Shown piece by piece: positions 356-46,351 of a DNA stretch of 49,191 nt (position 1 is the stretch's first letter; the number at the start of each line of letters is the position of its first letter). This DNA is from a virus: positions 1 to 49,191 of the IMG/VR virus record IMGVR_UViG_3300001683_000172. One strand, 5' to 3'. A program made the position numbers and the translations under genes. The notes beneath the pieces are model-generated. The model saw only the letters and a list, made by a program, of their open reading frames with translations, searched no databases and was not told where the DNA came from.

Positions 356-524
356 ATAATTGCTTTCTACGTTCTTCCGTTATTTCGTCTCGTCTTTTCT
401 TTCTATACCTATCCCTTGCAACTTTACGTAAAGCTTCCTTATTACGCTCATAGTGTTCCATTTGCCATTTTCGCTGAGCTACCTGTTGTTGTTTTTCTGT
501 AAAATATTTACGCTTTCTTCCCAT
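345..524 (-). CDS. Small very basic protein, 59 aa, unknown function
   Basis: A 59-codon frame starts with ATG and reads MGRKRKYFTEKQQQVAQRKW at its N-terminus. It is rich in Arg/Lys and likely helical. It overlaps the end of the 5'-nuclease gene (17 nt) and the start of the methyltransferase gene (11 nt), so it fills the space between two clear genes in the same operon, which supports its being real. The composition suggests nucleic-acid binding, for example a small DNA-binding partner. I do not recognise a family. Confidence 0.6.
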   Translation of the reverse strand: MGRKRKYFTEKQQQVAQRKWQMEHYERNKEALRKVARDRYRKKRRDEITEERRKQLYGE

Positions 525-1587
525 GACTCATCCTTGCGTATCTATTCAATTGTGTAAAATTTTGAGTTAACCAACCCTGTAAATTCGGTAATGCTGTAAA
601 TAATTTATCTTGAACAAACTTAGTTTCAAACTTAAATTTTATTAATTCTGTTATATGACTTTCAACTATATCCATAATTTTCATTTTATTGCTAGGTGTG
701 ATATCTACGTTAAATAATTGCATTAATTTTCTATTTAGAAATAATTGTTCTTTACAAATACCTACACTTTCATATAACTTTAATTCATCTTTCTTTTCTT
801 CTGAAATTTTTATACATTCTTCTAATGTATAATATGGTTCATCTCTATCTGTTATTTTAGGAAATCTTTTTATGATAGTTTTAAGTCCAGCGCCCCGTAC
901 ACCAGGAATATTATCAGATTTATCTCCTTCTAATATTCTATAAGTTAAAAAGTTTTTTGATGGTATTCCATATTCATCATATATTGCATCCCTATCATAT
1001 ATTTTCTTTTTAGTAGGGCTATATACTTTGATTCTATGATTTATAAGTTGAAGAAAATCTTTATCTGTAGATGTAATTACTACTTTACTTTCATTAAAAA
1101 TTTGTTTAGATAAATGAGCTATAACATCATCTGCTTCAATATTATCCATAGCTAAAATTGTAACTGGCAACAATTGTAAATACTCAATTACAGATTGTAA
1201 TTGTTTCATCATATTCTTTCGCTCATCGTCCTCGCTAGCAAAATCATATGCGCGCACTAATCTACTCTTTGGTTTCCTACCAGCTTTATATTCAGGAAAT
1301 AACTTACGGCGGCGGGTGCTCCCACCCTTACCATCAAATACTATAATGGCTCGGGTGGGATTGAAAAGATGGATTGCATAACCTATACTTTTTAGAAAGC
1401 CAACTATTCCCCCAATGTGAATTCCATCATCATTGAGAGTTGGCATAACGCTGAATACTCTTATAAAGGTATTCAGTCCATCTACAATAAGTACCTTATC
1501 ATTGAAGTGACCACCATCTAAACTACCGCCTTTTTTCTTAATTTCTTCAAGTATACTGACATATCTTTTATTCATTATCCGCCCCAT
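508..1587 (-). CDS. rnh: 5'-3' exonuclease / flap endonuclease (T4 RNase H type)
   Basis: PIN/FEN-type 5' nuclease that would remove RNA primers and flaps during phage replication. The acidic metal-binding residues of the family are visible: VLIVDGLNTF with D36, IIVFDGKGG with D85, NIEADDVIAHL with E151/D153/D154, TSTDKDF with D175/D177, and GDKSDNIPGVRGAGLKT (D222/D225 plus the helix-hairpin-helix). RRRKLFPEYKAGRKP (residues 92-106) is the helical-arch Arg/Lys segment. At 359 aa it is somewhat longer than T4 RNase H (about 305). A second in-frame ATG 12 nt downstream (1575) is an equally possible start. The gene overlaps the recombinase gene by 20 nt, so the two are probably co-transcribed. 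Confidence 0.93.
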   Translation of the reverse strand: MGRIMNKRYVSILEEIKKKGGSLDGGHFNDKVLIVDGLNTFIRVFSVMPTLNDDGIHIGGIVGFLKSIGYAIHLFNPTRAIIVFDGKGGSTRRRKLFPEYKAGRKPKSRLVRAYDFASEDDERKNMMKQLQSVIEYLQLLPVTILAMDNIEADDVIAHLSKQIFNESKVVITSTDKDFLQLINHRIKVYSPTKKKIYDRDAIYDEYGIPSKNFLTYRILEGDKSDNIPGVRGAGLKTIIKRFPKITDRDEPYYTLEECIKISEEKKDELKLYESVGICKEQLFLNRKLMQLFNVDITPSNKMKIMDIVESHITELIKFKFETKFVQDKLFTALPNLQGWLTQNFTQLNRYARMSHGKKA

Positions 1588-2683
1588 CTGTAATTTCTAC
1601 ATCGTCAATTCCTAAAGCACTTTTATCATACTTTAGAATAACTTTATCACAGATGAGTTTATAGATATATTCTTTTAGATCTTCATCTTTTAACATATCA
1701 GCAAAATCTTTAGATTGAAATTTCTTTACTTCTATTTCTTTCCCAGTTTCCAAATCAATTATTGGCAAGGAGTACCAAGCTCCAGCAACTTTAGCTATAC
1801 CATGTTCTTTCATTATAGTTAGCCAACTACCTTCATCATCGATACCACTCTCAAAATAAAGAGGAAACTCCGCTTTTCTTAGTGGAGGTCCCAATCTATT
1901 TTTTACAACTTGCGCTAGAATCGTCATCCCAATAACATTCTTCTTAGAATCTTTTATTTGACCTTTGTTTTTTAACCTAATTCTAGTCGACGCATGAAAT
2001 GGTAATGCCTTTCCACCACTTGTTGTCCAAGGGTCTCCAAACATTACTCCAAGTTTTTGTCTAAGTTGATTTGTAAACACAAGAGCAACTTTCTGTCGCC
2101 CTATCATTTGAGTAATTTTTCTTAATGCTTTAGAAACAATAATTGCTTTTGCAGTAGCCCAACCATCTTTATCAAAGTCGGCTTCCATTTCTACTTTCGT
2201 AGTAGCCGCTGCAAGTGAATCTACTAATATTGTCACCAATCTATCTTTATCCGAACTTCTAACTTGTAAAACTATTTCTTCAATAGCTTCAAATATATCT
2301 TCAACTGTTTCCAAATGTAAGTATAACATACTGCTTACATCTACACCAATAACTTCTAAAAAATCATGACTTACTGACGTTTCTGTATCAATATAAACTG
2401 CTACACCATTCTTCTTTTGGGTTTCAGCGAGAATATGAGCTCCAACTAAAGATTTACCACTAGATTCCAATCCATTGAGTTCTGTAATTCTACCTACTGC
2501 AATACCACCGTTTGGCTTATTTGATATTGCTAAATCCAACACAGTTGAACCAGTAGAAATAAACTCTTTTATATCTGTTGGCGTACTATCAGACCCATCC
2601 AAAAAATACGCCACTTTCATGTCCTTAAACTTCTTATTTAAAGTATCAGCAAGGACATCAGCTAACTCATCCCGTACAGACAT
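1568..2683 (-). CDS. uvsX: RecA/UvsX-family recombinase
   Basis: ATP-dependent strand-exchange protein for recombination-dependent replication and repair. Walker A is GLESSGKS (residues 71-78), which matches RecA GPESSGKT closely. YIDTETS at 97-103 carries the catalytic glutamate, LVDSLAAA near 153-160 is Walker B, and TNQLRQKLGVMFG at 204-216 includes the ATP-sensing Gln before loop L2. TSGGKALPFHASTRIRL matches the RecA 'GGNALKFYASVRL' segment. At 371 aa it is close to T4 UvsX (about 390) and RecA (about 350). The C-terminus is acidic, as in RecA. It lies between the ssDNA-binding protein and the 5' nuclease, forming a recombination/replication operon. Confidence 0.95.
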   Translation of the reverse strand: MSVRDELADVLADTLNKKFKDMKVAYFLDGSDSTPTDIKEFISTGSTVLDLAISNKPNGGIAVGRITELNGLESSGKSLVGAHILAETQKKNGVAVYIDTETSVSHDFLEVIGVDVSSMLYLHLETVEDIFEAIEEIVLQVRSSDKDRLVTILVDSLAAATTKVEMEADFDKDGWATAKAIIVSKALRKITQMIGRQKVALVFTNQLRQKLGVMFGDPWTTSGGKALPFHASTRIRLKNKGQIKDSKKNVIGMTILAQVVKNRLGPPLRKAEFPLYFESGIDDEGSWLTIMKEHGIAKVAGAWYSLPIIDLETGKEIEVKKFQSKDFADMLKDEDLKEYIYKLICDKVILKYDKSALGIDDVEITDGADNE

Positions 2684-2699
2684 CTGTATATCCTATTCT

Positions 2700-3470
2700 T
2701 TAAGCGTTTTGATTAAATAATTCATCAAAAGCTGATGATACAGATTCTACAGTTTTTGTAGTTTCTGCAACTTTATCTGAAGTGACTGATTCACCTTTTT
2801 TAGTGTCATCAGTTTCTTCACTCTTACCTTCAAGCCAATCATTTAAAATCTCAGTAAGTTCATCATAAGTCTTTTCCTGATAAATTTCTGTGAGTTCACG
2901 TTGTGAATCTGATACCAATTCAAGAATATTTTTATCCTCTGAAATCGGAGCCGTTACTGGCTTAACTCTAATAGCAGTAGATGGGAAAGTAGCCCCTGTT
3001 TCTTCTGCAGTCTTAAATTCAACATTAACATCTCGTCCATTTAATGGATCTGTAATATCACCATAATCTGGATCTGAAATAACTGAAAGAAGTTCCTGGT
3101 AAACGGTTTTTCCGAATCCCCAGAATTTAACACCTTCTTTTTCCTCACCTCGTACAACTACAGGTGCAAAAGTTCTCATTTTGGCTTCGAGTTTCTTTCC
3201 AAGACGATAATCATCACGATTACCAGAAGTTTTCAACTTCTGAGCAAATTCTTCTATTGGGTCTGGTCGACCGAAAGAAATTGGTGATAGATAAGATTTT
3301 CCACCTAAATTATAATGGAAAAATAATTCTATAAAAGGATTGTCCTTATTAAATTTATAAGGTACAATTCTTATAATTTGTGTTCCTGGTTGTGGTTTCC
3401 AAAGAACGGATGTTCTTTGATTTGTTGCTTGTAACTGGTTTAAACGTCGTTTTACTAGATCTAAATCCAT
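2700..3470 (-). CDS. 32: Single-stranded DNA-binding protein (gp32-like)
   Basis: 256-aa protein with the layout of T4 gp32. It has a basic N-terminal arm (LVKRRLNQLQATNQR) for cooperative self-interaction, then an OB-fold-like core with IIRIVPYKFNKDNPFIELFFHYN and SYLSPISFGRPDPIEEFAQKL. It ends in an acidic, Ser/Thr-rich C-terminal tail (after about residue 200) closing with SAFDELFNQNA, resembling the acidic tip through which phage and bacterial SSBs recruit partners. Unlike T4 gp32 it has no cysteines, so the structural zinc site is absent. The gene directly precedes uvsX. The upstream 95-nt gap is very AT-rich and ends in an AGGAG ribosome-binding site. Confidence 0.85.
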   Translation of the reverse strand: MDLDLVKRRLNQLQATNQRTSVLWKPQPGTQIIRIVPYKFNKDNPFIELFFHYNLGGKSYLSPISFGRPDPIEEFAQKLKTSGNRDDYRLGKKLEAKMRTFAPVVVRGEEKEGVKFWGFGKTVYQELLSVISDPDYGDITDPLNGRDVNVEFKTAEETGATFPSTAIRVKPVTAPISEDKNILELVSDSQRELTEIYQEKTYDELTEILNDWLEGKSEETDDTKKGESVTSDKVAETTKTVESVSSAFDELFNQNA

Positions 3471-3565
3471 TTTTTAATCTCCTATATGTATATTTTAATT
3501 ATTAATTATTAATTGTAAATGGTTAATCAATTTAAGAACCATTCACATATAAGTATCATGTAGTT
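3471..3565 (-). promoter_or_regulatory. AT-rich leader before the ssDNA-binding protein gene
   Basis: This 95-nt spacer is one of the longer gaps in the replication block. On the coding strand it has a TTGATT element followed about 17 nt later by A/T repeats (tandem ATTAATT units), then TATAGGAG just before the ATG. This is compatible with a host-sigma70-like early or middle promoter, but the -10 match is not distinct. The structural-gene motif TATATTTATA is absent here, which fits a different expression class. Confidence 0.35.
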
Positions 3566-4417
3566 TTACAAACTACCATTCTTTTTTGAATTTTCTATAA
3601 CTTTCAAAGCATACTCATAATAAAATCTACCTGCTTTAGGTCCACCGTTTCTTTTTCCATCCGATTCACCTATAGGTTTAATCCATAAAAATGCGTCACA
3701 TAATTCATTAGTAGTTTCTGTAGTTGGAAAAGTACCTATCACTGCGGTTGATGGATTACACCAATCCCCTGTATATCCAAACCCATTTCTAGAAGTATCT
3801 ATCACATAATGCTTATCTATTTTATTAGATATTTTATCTCCATAAATCATACATTGTTCCGTAGAAACAAAATTTGAAGTATTTAAAGCAAACCCTTCAT
3901 AAGACTCTTTATCAAATTTACTCAAAATATTTATAACTTCATCCACTTTTAACCAATATGGATGCCCAACATCTAAATATATCTTAGCATTACATCCTTT
4001 ATGTAAAAATTTTAAAGCTTTTCTAATTAATCTAATTCTTTTCTGTTTTTCTTCATATTTCATATCAAATGACTGTGCTAAAGCATCTGGTTCATATATT
4101 ACTATTGGAGATTTATCTTCTATCCCCTTTGATACATCCTTTATAAAATCTATATAGGCTACTTGATTAATTTCTCCACCCTTAGCATAATGACCCAAAT
4201 CTCTATCTGGTATAGAATATATAACTATATAAGGTAAATACGGATCCGCTCTATCAAATAATCTTTTAATTCGTTTTTGGATATTCCTTACCTTTTTATA
4301 CGGTGATGAACCATACCAAAATGCTATAGGTTGTCCAAATATTTTATTTAATTCTTTGGATTTTACTGTATGTTCTTTATGTATTCTAAAATCTGGATAA
4401 TAAAACCTGTATTCCAT
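3566..4417 (-). CDS. Glycoside hydrolase family 6 (beta-1,4-glucanase/cellulase), no signal peptide
   Basis: 283-aa protein carrying the GH6 signatures in the correct order. These are VIYSIPDRDLGHYAKGGE (residues 65-82, the 'PDRDC...GE' loop), IVIYEPDALA (105-114), AKIYLDVGHPYWL (144-156), GFALNTSNF (175-183), YVIDTSRNG (204-212), DWCNP (218-222) and FLWIKPIGESDG (243-254). By comparison with Cel6A enzymes, D111 in EPDALA would be the catalytic acid, D71/D73 the assisting aspartates, and D253 the aspartate of the GESDG loop. Length matches a minimal bacterial GH6 catalytic domain. There is no carbohydrate-binding module, linker, signal peptide or membrane segment. The Cys of the usual 'DRDC' is Leu74, suggesting no disulfide there and a cytoplasmic enzyme released at lysis. 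The ATG lies about 21 nt after an AGGAG that overlaps the upstream stop, a long spacing. Confidence 0.9.
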   Translation of the reverse strand: MEYRFYYPDFRIHKEHTVKSKELNKIFGQPIAFWYGSSPYKKVRNIQKRIKRLFDRADPYLPYIVIYSIPDRDLGHYAKGGEINQVAYIDFIKDVSKGIEDKSPIVIYEPDALAQSFDMKYEEKQKRIRLIRKALKFLHKGCNAKIYLDVGHPYWLKVDEVINILSKFDKESYEGFALNTSNFVSTEQCMIYGDKISNKIDKHYVIDTSRNGFGYTGDWCNPSTAVIGTFPTTETTNELCDAFLWIKPIGESDGKRNGGPKAGRFYYEYALKVIENSKKNGSL

Positions 4418-4433
4418 ATAACTTGAATCTAAC

Positions 4434-4847
4434 CTAATCTCCTATTCCCCACTCTGAAACTAATATTACTTTATGAATTTTTGTTTTTATCTCTACCAAC
4501 TTATCATCATTATATAATAAAATACAATTACGATAATCATCCCAGGGTATTGGGAATTTTTTATCAAGTATTCCATTGTTTAACTGTAATATAATTTTAT
4601 TTAATGCATTTATTGTATATAAAGTATTGGTATGTTTTTTTCTATGCAGAGAAATTGTATTTGGTATACCTTCCATAAAATCTGTTTCAAACTCAACATT
4701 ATATGTACAAATCAAATTAGTAGGTTCATTAGTATTATTAAAAACATATATTTTATCAAACAAAATTTTATTACAACTAATAATAATATCAATTATCTCA
4801 TTTAAATTATTCTTTTTTGCGAAAGTACAAAGTAATTGGGTTTTCAT
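4434..4847 (-). CDS. Unknown 137-aa protein upstream of the GH6 gene
   Basis: Starts at the ATG that overlaps the stop of the preceding gene as TAATG, giving MKTQLLCTFAKKNNLNEIID at the N-terminus. A TTG three codons earlier is less likely. The protein is soluble-looking, mixed alpha/beta, rich in Asn, Ile and Lys, with FPIPWDDYRNCILLYNDDKL near the C-terminus. No catalytic motif or transmembrane segment is evident and I do not recognise a family. It is translationally coupled to the 762-aa gene and is followed 16 nt later by the GH6 gene. Confidence 0.7.
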   Translation of the reverse strand: MKTQLLCTFAKKNNLNEIIDIIISCNKILFDKIYVFNNTNEPTNLICTYNVEFETDFMEGIPNTISLHRKKHTNTLYTINALNKIILQLNNGILDKKFPIPWDDYRNCILLYNDDKLVEIKTKIHKVILVSEWGIGD

Positions 4848-7135
4848 TATCCGCAAAGTCCTAGTTTTTTAGTTGCTATAGCCATACACTTCTGATATTC
4901 TTGTCCCCATTTCATAGAGTCTTGTACCATACCACCTGGACCAGATTTTGACCTACAAGTTTGTGTTGCTATTACTCTATTTTTATGGTCATAAATTATT
5001 GCTTTTATTTGGTCACTACCATCTTCCATCTTATATGGTTCATATGTGACTGTCATACCATCTTCAATTGACTGTCCCTCTTTCAAACCAAGACAATCTC
5101 TATGTACAGCTGGATCTCCAACTACAGCACAATCAAACTCTTCCAGTTTTTCTAATCTTGGGTCGCCCTTTTTAATTGGGTTACCAGTTGGTTCACCATT
5201 TTTATCTAAAAGATACCAACCATCCTTTTCATTGGCATACATATTACCTTTAGCATCTTGTTTCAACCCCAGTGCCACTAAATTTTTATATTCACCATGT
5301 ATCAAATCAAAATTACCATTTGGTATACCTGGGTGTTTTGGTGGTCCATCTGAAGCCCCTGCTCGGTGTCCCTCTGCAATATTTAAATGCATCCTATTCA
5401 TTAAATCTTGGATAAAAGTTTTATCACCCAGATCTGGAATTGGTGGTTTTTGTCCAGCACCAAGTTTATTTAATTCTTCTCTTTGTTTATTTAGTGCATC
5501 TGTTTGTTTTACATAATAACTTCTTAAATCTGCATCTGTCATCGCTGGGTCTATTGGGTCATCTCCAGTTATCATCTTCTCTTCTACTAATAGTCTTGAT
5601 ATTATTGAAATATCCTCGGCTGCCATACCTTTTTCTTTATCATCTCTTAGGGAAAGACCTGGTGTTTTATCTTTTAATGATTGTAAATATGTTTTAAGAT
5701 GTTTCTTAAGTTCTGCTTCATTTGGTGGTGGCCCCATCAACGCCTTTCTTTCCTCTGGTGACAAACCAACTCTTTTTAACGCAATCTTTAAATATTTTTC
5801 TGGCGTTCCACTTATTCCTGGCGGAGTTCCAGTTTTATCATTCATAAGTCTTTTATATATCAAATCAAGTGTAGCATTGTCATCAGCAAAATCACTAAGT
5901 CTTTGTGTATATCCACCAACATACTCTGCTTGCTCCGTTCTTTGTTTGGCTATTTCATCTGTAGTATCTTTAGCAATTTTATCTGCTTTATCGTGTTCTT
6001 CTGGTGGTAAACTCTCTTTTGCTCTTTCATTATTATTATTTGCTGTTTTCTTAGGCCCACTATTTGATTGTTGGTCTTCTGTAGTCATCTTATTTGAGGT
6101 GTGATTTATAGCCGCCTTGATTGGTTTACCATTATCATCATACTCAATCATAAAAACTATAGTATCCGTTGGGTCTTCTCCGCCACCACCGTGTTTTATT
6201 ATTGACTTATATCCATATTCTATAACATTCCCATCTTTATCCAATGTATCGGCAATCTTAACACCATTCGGCGGGGGACCAGGTATATGGGTTATTCCTG
6301 CTTTTTCTAATTCTTCTAATCTTGTAACGGCATCGTCTAAAGAACCTTGAGAACCACCAATGTGTGAAACCTTTGTATTTTCAGCACTCATTCCCTCTCT
6401 TTCTAAGGTTTCATTTACTCTCTGTTTCTCTCTACGAGCACTTCGTATCATCTGTTTTCTTTTTGTCTCATTATTATTTTTAGAAGAACTACCAAGTTCA
6501 GTCGTATCTAATTTATCCTTTAAACACCCATCTACATCATTTGGATGTGTATCTAAACACGCCATAGCATATCCAGTTCCTATCTCACTTACTGCCGATG
6601 ATTTAGTTCCTGGTGGTTGTTCTTCCCCATTCATTACTGCAAGTTTTGAATCACCATCTATATCATCTATTTCTGCTTCTGATATTGGTTTATTTGGTGC
6701 AGGTTTTTTCTTCTTTTTCTTTTTAGGTACTGCGCCCCTCTCTGGCTCAGTCTCTCTTTCAAAATCTCCTGCTCCTAATTCACCAGATGGTTCTTCTTTA
6801 TCACCTTTTCCTGATGGATTAGCATACTTGTCAGCTGCTTCTTTATCATCACCAAAGGAATCTGTATTACCTTCAGGATTCATAGCTTTCCACTGGCCAG
6901 TTGGTTTATCTGGTTTGTCATCTTTCTTATGAGCTTGCCAAACTTCACCTGGATTATGTTTTTTAGAGGTAGGAGCTTCCAACAATAAAACAAATTTATT
7001 AATAGCATCCCAAGTCCACCCCTCTTCTAACAATACATTTTCTAAATGAAAAATATGATGCTTATTTTTAGAATTTGGACCTAACTTACCAATCTTTTGT
7101 GACCATTTTTTTACTATCTTTTTAAAATAGCTCAT
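4847..7135 (-). CDS. Large hydrophilic protein of unknown function, 762 aa
   Basis: The N-terminal about 50 residues are basic and helical (MSYFKKIVKKWSQKIGKLGP, then LLEEGWTWDAINKFVLLLEA). A long low-complexity region follows, rich in Lys, Asp, Glu, Gly and Pro, including a run of seven lysines near residue 140. The rest is a charged segment with few hydrophobics. The C-terminal about 120 residues look globular, with three cysteines in CAVVGDPAVHRDCLGLKEGQ, and end in CMAIATKKLGLCG. There is no transmembrane region or recognisable enzyme motif. Its start overlaps the polymerase stop by 4 nt (ATGA). It could be a virion-packaged or ejected protein, but nothing in the sequence proves this. Confidence 0.75.
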   Translation of the reverse strand: MSYFKKIVKKWSQKIGKLGPNSKNKHHIFHLENVLLEEGWTWDAINKFVLLLEAPTSKKHNPGEVWQAHKKDDKPDKPTGQWKAMNPEGNTDSFGDDKEAADKYANPSGKGDKEEPSGELGAGDFERETEPERGAVPKKKKKKKPAPNKPISEAEIDDIDGDSKLAVMNGEEQPPGTKSSAVSEIGTGYAMACLDTHPNDVDGCLKDKLDTTELGSSSKNNNETKRKQMIRSARREKQRVNETLEREGMSAENTKVSHIGGSQGSLDDAVTRLEELEKAGITHIPGPPPNGVKIADTLDKDGNVIEYGYKSIIKHGGGGEDPTDTIVFMIEYDDNGKPIKAAINHTSNKMTTEDQQSNSGPKKTANNNNERAKESLPPEEHDKADKIAKDTTDEIAKQRTEQAEYVGGYTQRLSDFADDNATLDLIYKRLMNDKTGTPPGISGTPEKYLKIALKRVGLSPEERKALMGPPPNEAELKKHLKTYLQSLKDKTPGLSLRDDKEKGMAAEDISIISRLLVEEKMITGDDPIDPAMTDADLRSYYVKQTDALNKQREELNKLGAGQKPPIPDLGDKTFIQDLMNRMHLNIAEGHRAGASDGPPKHPGIPNGNFDLIHGEYKNLVALGLKQDAKGNMYANEKDGWYLLDKNGEPTGNPIKKGDPRLEKLEEFDCAVVGDPAVHRDCLGLKEGQSIEDGMTVTYEPYKMEDGSDQIKAIIYDHKNRVIATQTCRSKSGPGGMVQDSMKWGQEYQKCMAIATKKLGLCG

Positions 7136-8409
7136 GCTATAAATTTCTCCGTTATATCTTCCATCTCGTGATAATTATCTCCCCTATGTACCGTAACTGG
7201 ATACTTTCCAGTATGTTCCAATATAGATTTAATTGATTGTAAACACTCCAAACCATCTTCGATGTAAAAATCAAATAAAAATGAATCATAATTATACAAT
7301 ACCAATTTACTCTTATACTTTTTTATTCTAGGTAATAAATTATTTAACATTTCCATATTTCTCTCTGTTTCTAAATTTTGAATAAAGTAATTAAACAATT
7401 TATTTTTATTCATATCACTCATATTACTACTATATATCTTCTTTCTATAAATATAAGATTCTATATATTTATTCCTTAGATAAAACTTCCAAAGCTTCTT
7501 TACAAACACTTTTACCTTACCAAAAAATTCTATATTTTTACCAATATCAAAAGGTACTCCACCATATAAATATTTAAAACTCAATACTTTAGCCTCTTTA
7601 TAAGTAATTCCATATAGTTCTGCAAAATATTCATGTACTGAAGTTTTTGGTAACTCAAAATCTAAAACATCTGCAATCAATCGTAAATGGTATGCATCAT
7701 AATCAAACTCAACCAATTTACCTTTACTACCAAATCTACTTATATATGGTTTTCTACTACCATCTGTTTTATTTAATGCTGCAAAATTAATTCCACCAAA
7801 TCTATTAGATGGACGACCTGTTGATGTAAAATTATTATACTGTGTATAAACCAATTGATCGTTTTTTAGTATTCCATTTTTTTCTATATTGTATAATAAT
7901 CTAGTCATATAATCATATCTTGAATTTGTAAACTCTTCTTTGAAAATATTATCATCCATGTGTTTTTTAATATATTCATAATGCTTTAATAATGGAATAT
8001 AATCATTAAGATTTTTTTGATTTGGAAATTTATAATCCCAAAATGATATATAATTATCATCTTCATCAATATAATTATAATCTTTATTAGTTTCTAAATA
8101 TAATAGTGTAGATATATCTACCGTATGTTTAAAATCAATTTGATGTAAAAGATTCTTTTTATTCCACACATACTTTTTATTCTCTGTTTTTAACTGTTTT
8201 AAATACTTGATAGGTAAATTTAGAGCATCATTATGATTGAACGGTAATATATAATCATCATCTAATCGTACACATAAAAATGATATCCTGTTCTGTGATG
8301 GATGTAAATGTATATCTGAAAATACATAATAGATTACTGGTCCAGCCTTTCTGCTTTGATACTTAGACCAAAAATAATCAAATTCTTTTTTTGACTCAAT
8401 TATTTCCAA
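7132..8409 (-). CDS. Divergent short family-A DNA polymerase
   Basis: The C-terminal half has the polymerase A landmarks. NFTSTGRPSNRFGGINFAAL (193-212) matches the 'TxTGRLSSxxPNLQNIP' segment. VEFDYDAYHLRLIAD (233-247) is motif A with D236. EAKVLSFKYLYGG (272-284) is motif B, keeping the Lys, Phe and Tyr equivalents of Pol I K758, F762 and Y766. NYFIQN (340-345) keeps the N..Q pair, and LVLYNYDSFLFDF (369-381) is motif C with D375. Both metal-binding aspartates are kept, but motif A Glu710 becomes His, motif B Arg754 becomes Tyr, and motif C HDE becomes YDS. The N-terminal about 190 aa resemble a degenerate 3'-5' exonuclease domain without the usual acidic set. At 425 aa it is much shorter than Pol I or T7 polymerase. 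It overlaps thyX by 10 nt. It may be a repair-type polymerase or a very reduced replicative one. Confidence 0.8.
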   Translation of the reverse strand: MEIIESKKEFDYFWSKYQSRKAGPVIYYVFSDIHLHPSQNRISFLCVRLDDDYILPFNHNDALNLPIKYLKQLKTENKKYVWNKKNLLHQIDFKHTVDISTLLYLETNKDYNYIDEDDNYISFWDYKFPNQKNLNDYIPLLKHYEYIKKHMDDNIFKEEFTNSRYDYMTRLLYNIEKNGILKNDQLVYTQYNNFTSTGRPSNRFGGINFAALNKTDGSRKPYISRFGSKGKLVEFDYDAYHLRLIADVLDFELPKTSVHEYFAELYGITYKEAKVLSFKYLYGGVPFDIGKNIEFFGKVKVFVKKLWKFYLRNKYIESYIYRKKIYSSNMSDMNKNKLFNYFIQNLETERNMEMLNNLLPRIKKYKSKLVLYNYDSFLFDFYIEDGLECLQSIKSILEHTGKYPVTVHRGDNYHEMEDITEKFIA

Positions 8410-9068
8410 TATACTTCACTCCATATTTTAACAGTTTCGGGATAAATGTCATACATCATTTCTTTTTGTGCAGTTTTCTCATCTCTCAAATCAATAAAAT
8501 TCATAATTGCTTGAAATGATGCCGTCCAATAAACTTCGGTGTATTGTGATAATGGTAATACTATTCTTGCTTGTTCCTTCGCCATACCTGTTTGCACCAT
8601 AGTTTCATAAACTCTCTCAACCTCTAATAAATATCTATCATATAAATGTCTCATTCTTTTTTGTTGTAAATCATCTAACTCACCTTCGGATGCTTGTTTG
8701 TTATCTTGAGATTGTTTTCTCCAAACTTCTGGAATATAATAATCTGACACAGGAGTGTATCTACCACTAATCTCGTTCCAAGCGTGGTCTTTGGTGGGAT
8801 ATGATGATGTGGTTTCTATTCCAACTACGTGTTTATACCATTGTCGCATTACAAACTCTGGTGCTTTGAGATGAAATTGAACCATCATATGTCTAAATGG
8901 GGAGAAGTGTTTATGTTTGGCAAGAAATTTTACAAGTGCTCTATCTGACTTATCATATACTTCTTTTCTTTTACCAAAAGAAACTCTAGCTGAATTGACT
9001 ACCGTTAGGTCTGATCCTAATGTATCTATAACTTCAACAAATCCCTTATCGAGAACCTGTTTTTTCAT
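8400..9068 (-). CDS. thyX: FAD-dependent thymidylate synthase ThyX
   Basis: Makes dTMP from dUMP using methylene-tetrahydrofolate and reduced FAD, supplying thymidine for replication. Family features are HFSPFRHMMVQFHLKAPEFV (54-73), then RQWYKH (75-80) and, after an insertion, NEISGRYTP (98-106). These form the ThyX signature RHRxxSxNExSxRY in the split form common in phages. EQARIVLPLSQYTEVYWTAS (near 165-185) holds the conserved Arg and Leu of the substrate site, and NFIDLRDEKTAQKEM is the C-terminal helix motif. At 222 aa the length is normal. Upstream lie 72 AT-rich nt with TTATATATAAT on the coding strand, a probable promoter -10 region. Confidence 0.95.
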   Translation of the reverse strand: MKKQVLDKGFVEVIDTLGSDLTVVNSARVSFGKRKEVYDKSDRALVKFLAKHKHFSPFRHMMVQFHLKAPEFVMRQWYKHVVGIETTSSYPTKDHAWNEISGRYTPVSDYYIPEVWRKQSQDNKQASEGELDDLQQKRMRHLYDRYLLEVERVYETMVQTGMAKEQARIVLPLSQYTEVYWTASFQAIMNFIDLRDEKTAQKEMMYDIYPETVKIWSEVYWK

Positions 9069-20340: not shown

Positions 20341-20350
20341 TATAAATATA
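20341..20350 (-). promoter_or_regulatory. Promoter-like motif TATATTTATA
   Basis: On the coding strand TATATTTATA lies 37 nt before the TTG start of the 82-aa gene, leaving room for a leader of about 30 nt with its ribosome-binding site. The same motif with similar spacing precedes several other structural genes in this window. Confidence 0.5.
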
Positions 20351-44722: not shown

Positions 44723-46351
44723 TTAAACGTAATTAACGTCTGCTACGACTACTTGACCATAAAACTCGGGTCTGACCATTTTCTTAGCATAACGGGTCAT
44801 TACCCCTTTCCTCGGGGTGAAGTTAGCTGGATCATAAACAAGAGGTGTCATGATCAAAGGAACGTATGGAGCATAAACCGCACCAGTTTCTAAGAAGTTA
44901 GATCCACGGAATCCAATAAGGACTACGTTTTCTAACATATAAGGATTCTTATAAACTGTATATCGACTATTCAACATACCGACCTTCTGTACACCCATTG
45001 CAAATGAGCTATTTGATGCATTACCATCAGTGTCTGCTGCATATCCAGGAATACTCTCTATGATTGTTGCTGTTTCAGGTGAAACCACCATCCAGTTAGC
45101 ACCACCACGTAGAGTTTTCTGATGAATTGCATTACTTACACTTTGGACTTTGTTTCCAAGAGTCTGGAACCATTCGCCTTTTGTATAAGCGTTAGATGGT
45201 CCAGATGATTCTGCGAAAGTTCCGCCACTGTACTCATATCCAACTCTTGCTGACCAATATTCGGTTTTTGCGTCTGCATTTGCTCTAAGCATGTCTATGA
45301 TTTCCAAATCGATTTCCATCGAAACGTATTCACTTAACATTGCTGTAAGCTCTGCTTCTGCATCAACACTATGGTAAGCGTTAAGATCTTGAGCTAGCTC
45401 AGGAGTCCAGACTGCTTTCAGTTTACGAGTTTTAGCAACGATGCTAACTTGTCTTAACTGAATATCAATTTCTGGAATTCCGACATCGCCAGTATCTCCT
45501 GCCCAGTCTTCACTTGTGCTGACTTCAAAGTCACCACGAGTAGAGTCTGTAGGTTGCTGACTATAATTAACAGTCAGGTCACCTAATGTGCCAGCTGCTG
45601 ATTGTCTAACAATGAAGACTACTTCAGTATTAGCTGAACCAGACAGTTTTGTATATGCAGGGAAATACTCATCAAATCCCGTACCAGATATTACCATTGA
45701 ACGAACTGCTTCTACATCGGGACGAGTCATACCTGCGGTAGATACTGTCACTTTATTAAGTGAGTTATCTGCGCCTGCTGTTCCAATAGTTAAGTTGGGT
45801 TCATGATCAATATCTCTTGCTGCTACAGAACCAGTAATATAGGTTCCGCTTGCTACTGCGGATGCGTGAATGGACTGTGCGGCAGTTACCTGCTGCTTGG
45901 TTGAGTAAGCGAACTTACCTGCACCATAAAGACCACCACTTGCATCACCAGATGCTGATGTGTTACCATAAACATCTTCACCAACGCTAAAGCCTTGATT
46001 GGCTGTACCGTATTTAAAGTCTAGATAGAAAATCAGACCTGATGGAAGGTTCATAGGCTGAACAGAAACGAATTCCTGTGCTGCCAATTCACCAAAGATA
46101 CGTCTAACTAGAGGAAGTGCAACTCCACTCCATTCTTCTGTACCTGGTCCACCAACTCTTGAAGATTCATCAATAAGCTGACGTGCTTGATTTTCAAGCA
46201 ACTGTGCCATTGTATGAACTTTATTTTCGTCTCCGAGACCTTCTAACAGACCGGTAGCTTCCCACTTTTCTATGAGCTTCTTCGTTTCATTCCGACGCTC
46301 AATATGCGGATTATAGCCATCCATAATTTCTGCTATTGCCTTACTTGACAT
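44723..46351 (-). CDS. 23: Major capsid protein (gp23-like)
   Basis: 542 aa, T4 gp23 size (521). LLENQARQLIDESSRVGGPG followed by ALPLVRRIFGELAAQEFVSV QPMNLPSG and LIFYLDFKYG is the conserved HK97-fold N-arm of gp23. IDIQLRQVSIVAKTRKLKAV and WTPELAQDLNAYHSVDAEAE LTAML match the spine/P-domain. YAPYVPLIMTPLVYDPANFT PRKGVMTRYAKKMVRPEFYG is the conserved C-terminus. The first about 60 residues probably form the prohead-targeting piece removed by the maturation protease. GGAG precedes the ATG. The gene lies 15 nt after the scaffold gene. Confidence 0.97.
   Translation of the reverse strand: MSSKAIAEIMDGYNPHIERRNETKKLIEKWEATGLLEGLGDENKVHTMAQLLENQARQLIDESSRVGGPGTEEWSGVALPLVRRIFGELAAQEFVSVQPMNLPSGLIFYLDFKYGTANQGFSVGEDVYGNTSASGDASGGLYGAGKFAYSTKQQVTAAQSIHASAVASGTYITGSVAARDIDHEPNLTIGTAGADNSLNKVTVSTAGMTRPDVEAVRSMVISGTGFDEYFPAYTKLSGSANTEVVFIVRQSAAGTLGDLTVNYSQQPTDSTRGDFEVSTSEDWAGDTGDVGIPEIDIQLRQVSIVAKTRKLKAVWTPELAQDLNAYHSVDAEAELTAMLSEYVSMEIDLEIIDMLRANADAKTEYWSARVGYEYSGGTFAESSGPSNAYTKGEWFQTLGNKVQSVSNAIHQKTLRGGANWMVVSPETATIIESIPGYAADTDGNASNSSFAMGVQKVGMLNSRYTVYKNPYMLENVVLIGFRGSNFLETGAVYAPYVPLIMTPLVYDPANFTPRKGVMTRYAKKMVRPEFYGQVVVADVNYV

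Follow-up and report, generated by a model that had tools for sequence, protein, structure and literature searches.

A GH6 cellulase-family gene in the replication block of a T4-like phage and its relatives among viral contigs

The GH6 gene and its neighbours

The window, by which we mean the whole stretch of 49,191 bases that was analysed, is an IMG/VR virus record and represents a fragment of a genome. Its minus strand carries, at positions 3566..4417, an intact open reading frame (ORF) of 283 amino acids for a GH6 catalytic domain protein with no signal peptide, an assignment drawn from PF01341, the PDB, an AlphaFold (AF2) model, Foldseek and the catalytic residues. Textbooks describe GH6 as a family of secreted cellulases. 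The coordinates given in a first-pass annotation were exact, the strand being minus; the plus-strand reading of the same interval has no ORF and many stops. In a Pfam profile search the protein matched PF01341 at 152.6 bits, where the cut-off is 27 (E=2.9e-44), with residues 18-257 aligned to profile positions 13-298 of 305, and chance is a negligible explanation of such a match. The nearest protein in the PDB by phmmer is M. tuberculosis Cel6 (1up0/1uoz; E about 2e-46), with T. fusca Cel6A and a GH6 enzyme from compost as further closest solved relatives, while searches of PHROGs and NCBIfam gave no usable match. The motifs PDRD (D73), EPDALA (D111) and GESDG (D253) are present, together with D149, so that the GH6 signature segments and three aspartates reported earlier were found in order and the GH6 identity held up in the profile search. 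The stop-to-stop frame around the gene is 291 amino acids, only 8 codons beyond the ORF, which leaves no room for a signal peptide, linker or binding module and agrees with the earlier description of a bare 283-aa domain. The gene is confirmed as a real, intact and selected GH6 gene with a complete catalytic domain.

All of the neighbouring genes described here lie on the minus strand. On one side, beyond an intergenic stretch of 95 nt (3471..3565; about 96-102 nt in close relatives and up to 6.8 kb in others), are a gp32-like ssDNA-binding protein (2700..3470; PF08804 E=1.2e-13, phrog_1192), a RecA/UvsX-like recombinase (1568..2683; PF00154 E=2.7e-57, phrog_97) and a 5'-3' exonuclease (508..1587; PF02739 E=7.3e-34). 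On the other side is hyp140 (4434..4847), a gene of a 140-aa class with no function assigned, followed by a gene for a 762-aa protein (4847..7135) which occupies the same position in clade A contigs (see below) and had no convincing family match in Pfam or PHROGs. Next come a probable family A DNA polymerase-like protein (7132..8409), which had no strong Pfam match and is proposed from its sequence and from the polymerase annotated at that position in phage immuto, and a ThyX thymidylate synthase (8400..9068; PF02511 E=3.1e-35). The gp23 major capsid protein is encoded at 44723..46351 (PF07068 E=1.3e-76). The setting in a T4-like replication block claimed by the first-pass annotation is therefore correct, and the phage is T4-like, with gp23, gp32 and UvsX-like genes all present. 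In some clade A contigs, genes for a NagB-like glucosamine-6-phosphate isomerase and a PIG-L-type deacetylase lie between thyX and the polymerase-like gene (L060:3094-3762, L077:3764-4321).

The nearest relatives of the window's gp23 are those of LR756508, an uncultured phage of 484 kb (54.7% identity), Microcystis phage Mel-JY01, recorded from a cyanobacterium (52%), and Flavobacterium phage immuto (51%). Since immuto is among these neighbours, a Bacteroidota host is possible. No psbA-type gene, a sign of cyanophages, was found in 38 records, although the fragments among them weaken this result.

Viral relatives and the cargo slot

A scan of IMG/VR with the window protein recovered at least 55 viral loci at 41-96% identity, and a scan with an alignment recovered at least 133 contigs with confirmed relatives, of which the best 80 of 133 were kept; these pattern-scan counts are lower bounds, and some of the contigs are near-copies. 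An IQ-TREE analysis of 64 sequences separated 47 viral representatives from 17 cellular GH6 proteins with support of 100/100, and clade A, to which the window belongs, had support of 99/100. Clade B was monophyletic in 47% of bootstrap trees, hence clade A may nest within it. The nearest cellular GH6 proteins are about 40% identical and come from Patescibacteria MAGs, Streptomyces and mycobacteria; those from Patescibacteria include proteins with long N-terminal regions in Adlerbacteria, Kaiserbacteria and Saccharibacteria (L104, L105, L106, L114, L172). The tree names no donor, and its join to Streptomyces is flagged as long branches meeting.

Some viral cellulases have been described before. 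Erwinia amylovora phage S6 depends on host cellulose as its first receptor, and its genes include those for a GH5 cellulase that has been verified (gp095) and a GH48 protein (gp094) (PMC9544554). These resemble the viral GH6 proteins in being phage-encoded and, as proposed for GH6, directed against cellulose (PMC9544554), but they belong to GH5 and GH48, are multi-domain and possibly particle-bound, and come from a member of the Schitoviridae; no S6 record was among the matches to the window protein. Streptomyces phage Gilgamesh gp72 (L189:5362-6696) and its relatives L194-L199 share a phage GH6 catalytic domain with the window, but gp72 has an N-terminal extra domain, lies in a tail gene block and takes a separate place in the GH6 tree. 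There are six related loci in IMG/VR. In a quick tree including divergent phage rows, the GH6 proteins of Gilgamesh and of a faecal phage contig fell elsewhere, on long branches. Viral GH6 auxiliary genes have also been listed in the Mariana Trench and Aral Sea viromes (PMC8725595, PMC9948696), where each appeared as an isolated annotation and was interpreted as a metabolic gene acquired from the host; they may belong to the present clade. The suggestion in the first-pass annotation that there was no known established phage family of GH6 is thus overtaken by the many viral contigs found here, by Gilgamesh and the faecal phage contig, and by these virome reports. We found no description of a GH6 family in T4-like phages in the open-access papers searched. 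Phage GH5 and GH48 cellulases and single viral GH6 annotations were therefore already known, and what appears to be new is a dedicated phage clade of GH6, apparently undescribed.

Within clade A, the gene immediately upstream of GH6 is hyp140 in 41/41 loci where hyp140 was called, which places homologues at the same locus in other phage contigs, and between about 96 nt and 6.8 kb separate GH6 from gp32. Clade B GH6 mostly follows a peptide deformylase gene (PF01327), which is its direct upstream neighbour in 33 loci. One clade B carrier, G005 (L020), is an uncultured T4-like jumbo phage of 339,794 bases with T4-type gp23 and gp20, the former sharing 70% identity with the gp23 of PA5oct-like Pseudomonas jumbo phages. 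Searches for gp23, gp20 and sheath proteins in the other clade B records searched gave no match, probably because these are mostly fragments. Related GH6 genes occupy two different positions in two lineages, and the isolates closest to these lineages have hosts from different phyla; the simplest account would be transfer from phage to phage.

Flavobacterium phage immuto, Mel-JY01 and LR756508 share with the window the order hyp140, gp32 and recombinase; unlike the window, they carry no GH6, and the slot is empty or filled with other genes. The presence of hyp140 in these GH6-less phages marks it as belonging to the core gene set of the lineage and not as a partner of GH6. Among the matches listed in a scan with a hyp140 alignment, GH6 lay between hyp140 and gp32 in 1/73 sampled loci having both genes; the other 72 had no GH6 there, and 29 of those listed had a bare junction of 66-139 nt. 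The slot is empty in LR756508 and holds an S-adenosylmethionine lyase-family gene in Mel-JY01, and elsewhere its cargo includes a ConA-like lectin/glucanase-superfamily domain protein, a nucleotide-sugar epimerase, a methyltransferase, thioredoxin-like proteins and PhoH. The interval between hyp140 (its left edge) and gp32 (its right edge) is therefore a variable cargo slot and, as most sampled relatives have this slot without GH6 or filled otherwise, GH6 is optional cargo and not a core replication gene. The ConA-like protein, of ~430 aa, is encoded in the slot of a GH6-less relative at L213:815-2113.

Active site, disulphides and export

An AF2 model of the window protein, built from 27 viral sequences, had a mean pLDDT of 83.4 and a pTM of 0.86, with low-confidence loops at residues 76-78, 212-220 and 255-259. 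Its top Foldseek match is 1uoz (E 2e-25, query-normalised TM 0.87), and every Foldseek match listed is either a GH6 structure or a scaffold derived from one, so that the distorted barrel of GH6 is recovered in the prediction. The paired TM values are 0.87/0.82 for 1uoz and 0.85/0.84 for 1tml, both endoglucanases, and structural alignments to solved GH6 endoglucanases give 27-34% identity. The tunnel-type cellobiohydrolases of fungi and bacteria score lower, with target-normalised TM of about 0.5-0.64, as would be expected of a short endoglucanase-type domain without long tunnel loops; the model thus suggests an endo mode of action.

The catalytic aspartates appear, from the alignment, to correspond to those of solved GH6 enzymes. 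Against T. fusca Cel6A, D111 aligns with D117, D73 with D79, D149 with D156, D253 with D265, S181 with S189 and K247 with K259. In Cel6A, D117 is the catalytic acid, and hence D111 presumably has that role in the phage protein. Eleven positions (D73, E109, D111, D149, W155, R210, N211, K247, E251, S252 and D253) are identical in 47/47 viral representatives, and most glucan-binding positions are likewise identical across the 47, as in extracellular cellulases. Trp219 is replaced by His in one clade A subgroup, where the details of the substrate may differ. Pairwise dN/dS (NG86) among close clade A copies is 0.09-0.26, values which indicate purifying selection.

M. tuberculosis Cel6 and T. fusca Cel6A are secreted enzymes with two disulphides. 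They share with the window protein the fold, the full set of catalytic residues and a short catalytic domain, but a signal peptide is absent from the phage proteins, all of which have lost the first disulphide. A signal peptide, an upstream leader or a hydrophobic N-terminus was found in 0/47 viral GH6 proteins, whereas the cellular relatives examined have at least 61 in-frame residues ahead of the matching region, and in several of them this part contains signal-like or lipoprotein-like stretches. Cysteines were compared, and counted per position, with a set of 19 cellular and 3 other phage sequences. At position 74 (numbered as in the window protein), cysteine occurs in 0/47 viral proteins against 20/21 of the comparison set, at 118 in 0/47 against 18/20, and at 256 in 8/47 against 22/22. 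Neither cysteine of the first GH6 disulphide (74 and 118) is present in any of the 47 viral proteins; the second (220 and 256) is lost in 39/47, and the 8 viral proteins that retain it in full all belong to clade B, as against 22/22 of the comparison set. Nearly all cellular relatives keep both. The window protein has L74, D118, C220 and R256 at these positions, and hence lacks the features of a secreted GH6, namely the signal peptide and the two disulphides. The clearest new result is that the viral clade, judged from these substitutions, looks shaped for folding in a reducing cytoplasm. The first-pass annotation had noted that the cysteine of 'DRDC' is replaced by leucine, which is Leu74, and its suggestion of a cytosolic enzyme is strengthened by the loss of disulphide cysteines across the viral family.

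Possible roles of the enzyme

Our best guess, held with about even confidence, is that the GH6 protein is an endo-beta-1,4-glucanase which is made in the host cytoplasm, released at lysis and cuts a cellulose-like matrix. The phage would make an inverting, active enzyme in the cytoplasm of its bacterial host, where it would fold without the disulphides used by exported relatives and be retained until lysis. Once released, it would attack the cellulose, or some related beta-1,4-glucan, that surrounds the lysed cell and neighbouring cells, which would free progeny and help them reach new cells. Membership of the family, the predicted fold, the invariance of the catalytic residues, purifying selection, the lack of an export signal, the lost disulphide cysteines and the cargo slot are what the analysis shows. 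The activity, the substrate, the release at lysis and the benefit are the parts of this explanation that we infer, and matrix cutting after lysis is plausible as a role. Phage S6, with its dependence on host cellulose and its GH5 enzyme, offers a precedent. Against this explanation, GH6 lies in the replication block and not beside holin/lysin or tail genes, and a freely diffusing enzyme would bring little private benefit in open water.

An export-less, disulphide-poor GH6 is compatible alike with release at lysis, virion assembly and intracellular action. The enzyme could instead be carried in or on the capsid or tail and digest matrix glucan during entry, as tail-borne depolymerases do. The extra domains of the S6 cellulases have been proposed to attach to the particle (PMC9544554), the GH6 protein of Gilgamesh, of 444 aa, has an N-terminal extra domain and is encoded among minor tail genes, and loss of disulphides would also suit assembly in the cytoplasm. 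We nevertheless consider a virion enzyme unlikely here, as the proteins of clades A and B consist of the catalytic domain by itself and lack an attachment domain, clade A GH6 is not beside tail genes, and a T4 prohead-protease-like site ([IL]xE[AGS]) was found in the first 40 residues of 0/47. Action within the infected cell, where the substrate would be a beta-1,4-glucan in the cytoplasm or associated with the membrane, or some other intracellular glycan, would account for the uniform absence of an export signal and the loss of disulphides, and is in keeping with the position of clade A GH6 among replication genes, with the NagB-like and PIG-L-like sugar genes nearby in some contigs and with the nucleotide-sugar epimerase among the slot cargo. 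However, the glucan-binding residues are conserved as in extracellular cellulases and, to our knowledge, a free cytosolic beta-1,4-glucan polymer is not well established in bacteria, and we rate this reading as rather unlikely. Quite unlikely, in our judgement, is that a cytosol-adapted, phage-specific GH6 acting inside the infected cell, for example on nascent membrane glucan or a defence glycan, is common to T4-like phages of different bacterial phyla.

The authors of the Mariana Trench study read viral GH6 as auxiliary metabolism (PMC8725595), in which the living infected host would feed on algal or plant cellulose. The lack of an export signal and the loss of disulphides argue against this, since an enzyme that is not exported has no access to external cellulose until the cell lyses, and none of the genes beside GH6 was recognised as a sugar transporter or cellobiose gene; we consider it very unlikely. 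Hardly credible is a protein that has given up hydrolysis for glucan binding or moonlighting, given that none of the 47 viral proteins departs from the others at the catalytic aspartates or at the active-site residues next to them, and that selection on close copies is purifying. A phage family of intact, selected, export-less and disulphide-poor GH6 in at least two lineages would imply an advantage to phages in cleaving beta-1,4-glucan, and would suggest that, in water, a cellulose-like matrix stands in their way.

The timing of expression bears on release at lysis. The T4 late promoter motif TATAAATA occurs 17 times in the window against 9.7 expected, and no T4-type late promoter motif lies within 100 nt upstream of GH6 or of its upstream neighbours, so that early or middle expression fits as well as late. 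On the coding strand, TATTTATA, the reverse complement of the T4 late promoter core, is found 14-97 nt upstream of several structural genes (window positions 20341, 25235, 35825, 39995, 44658, 44676 and 47671), and is a possible candidate for the late promoter of this phage's lineage. Between 25894 and 41047, the minus strand of the window holds a long run of repetitive, Ser/Thr/Gly-rich, fibre-like ORFs.
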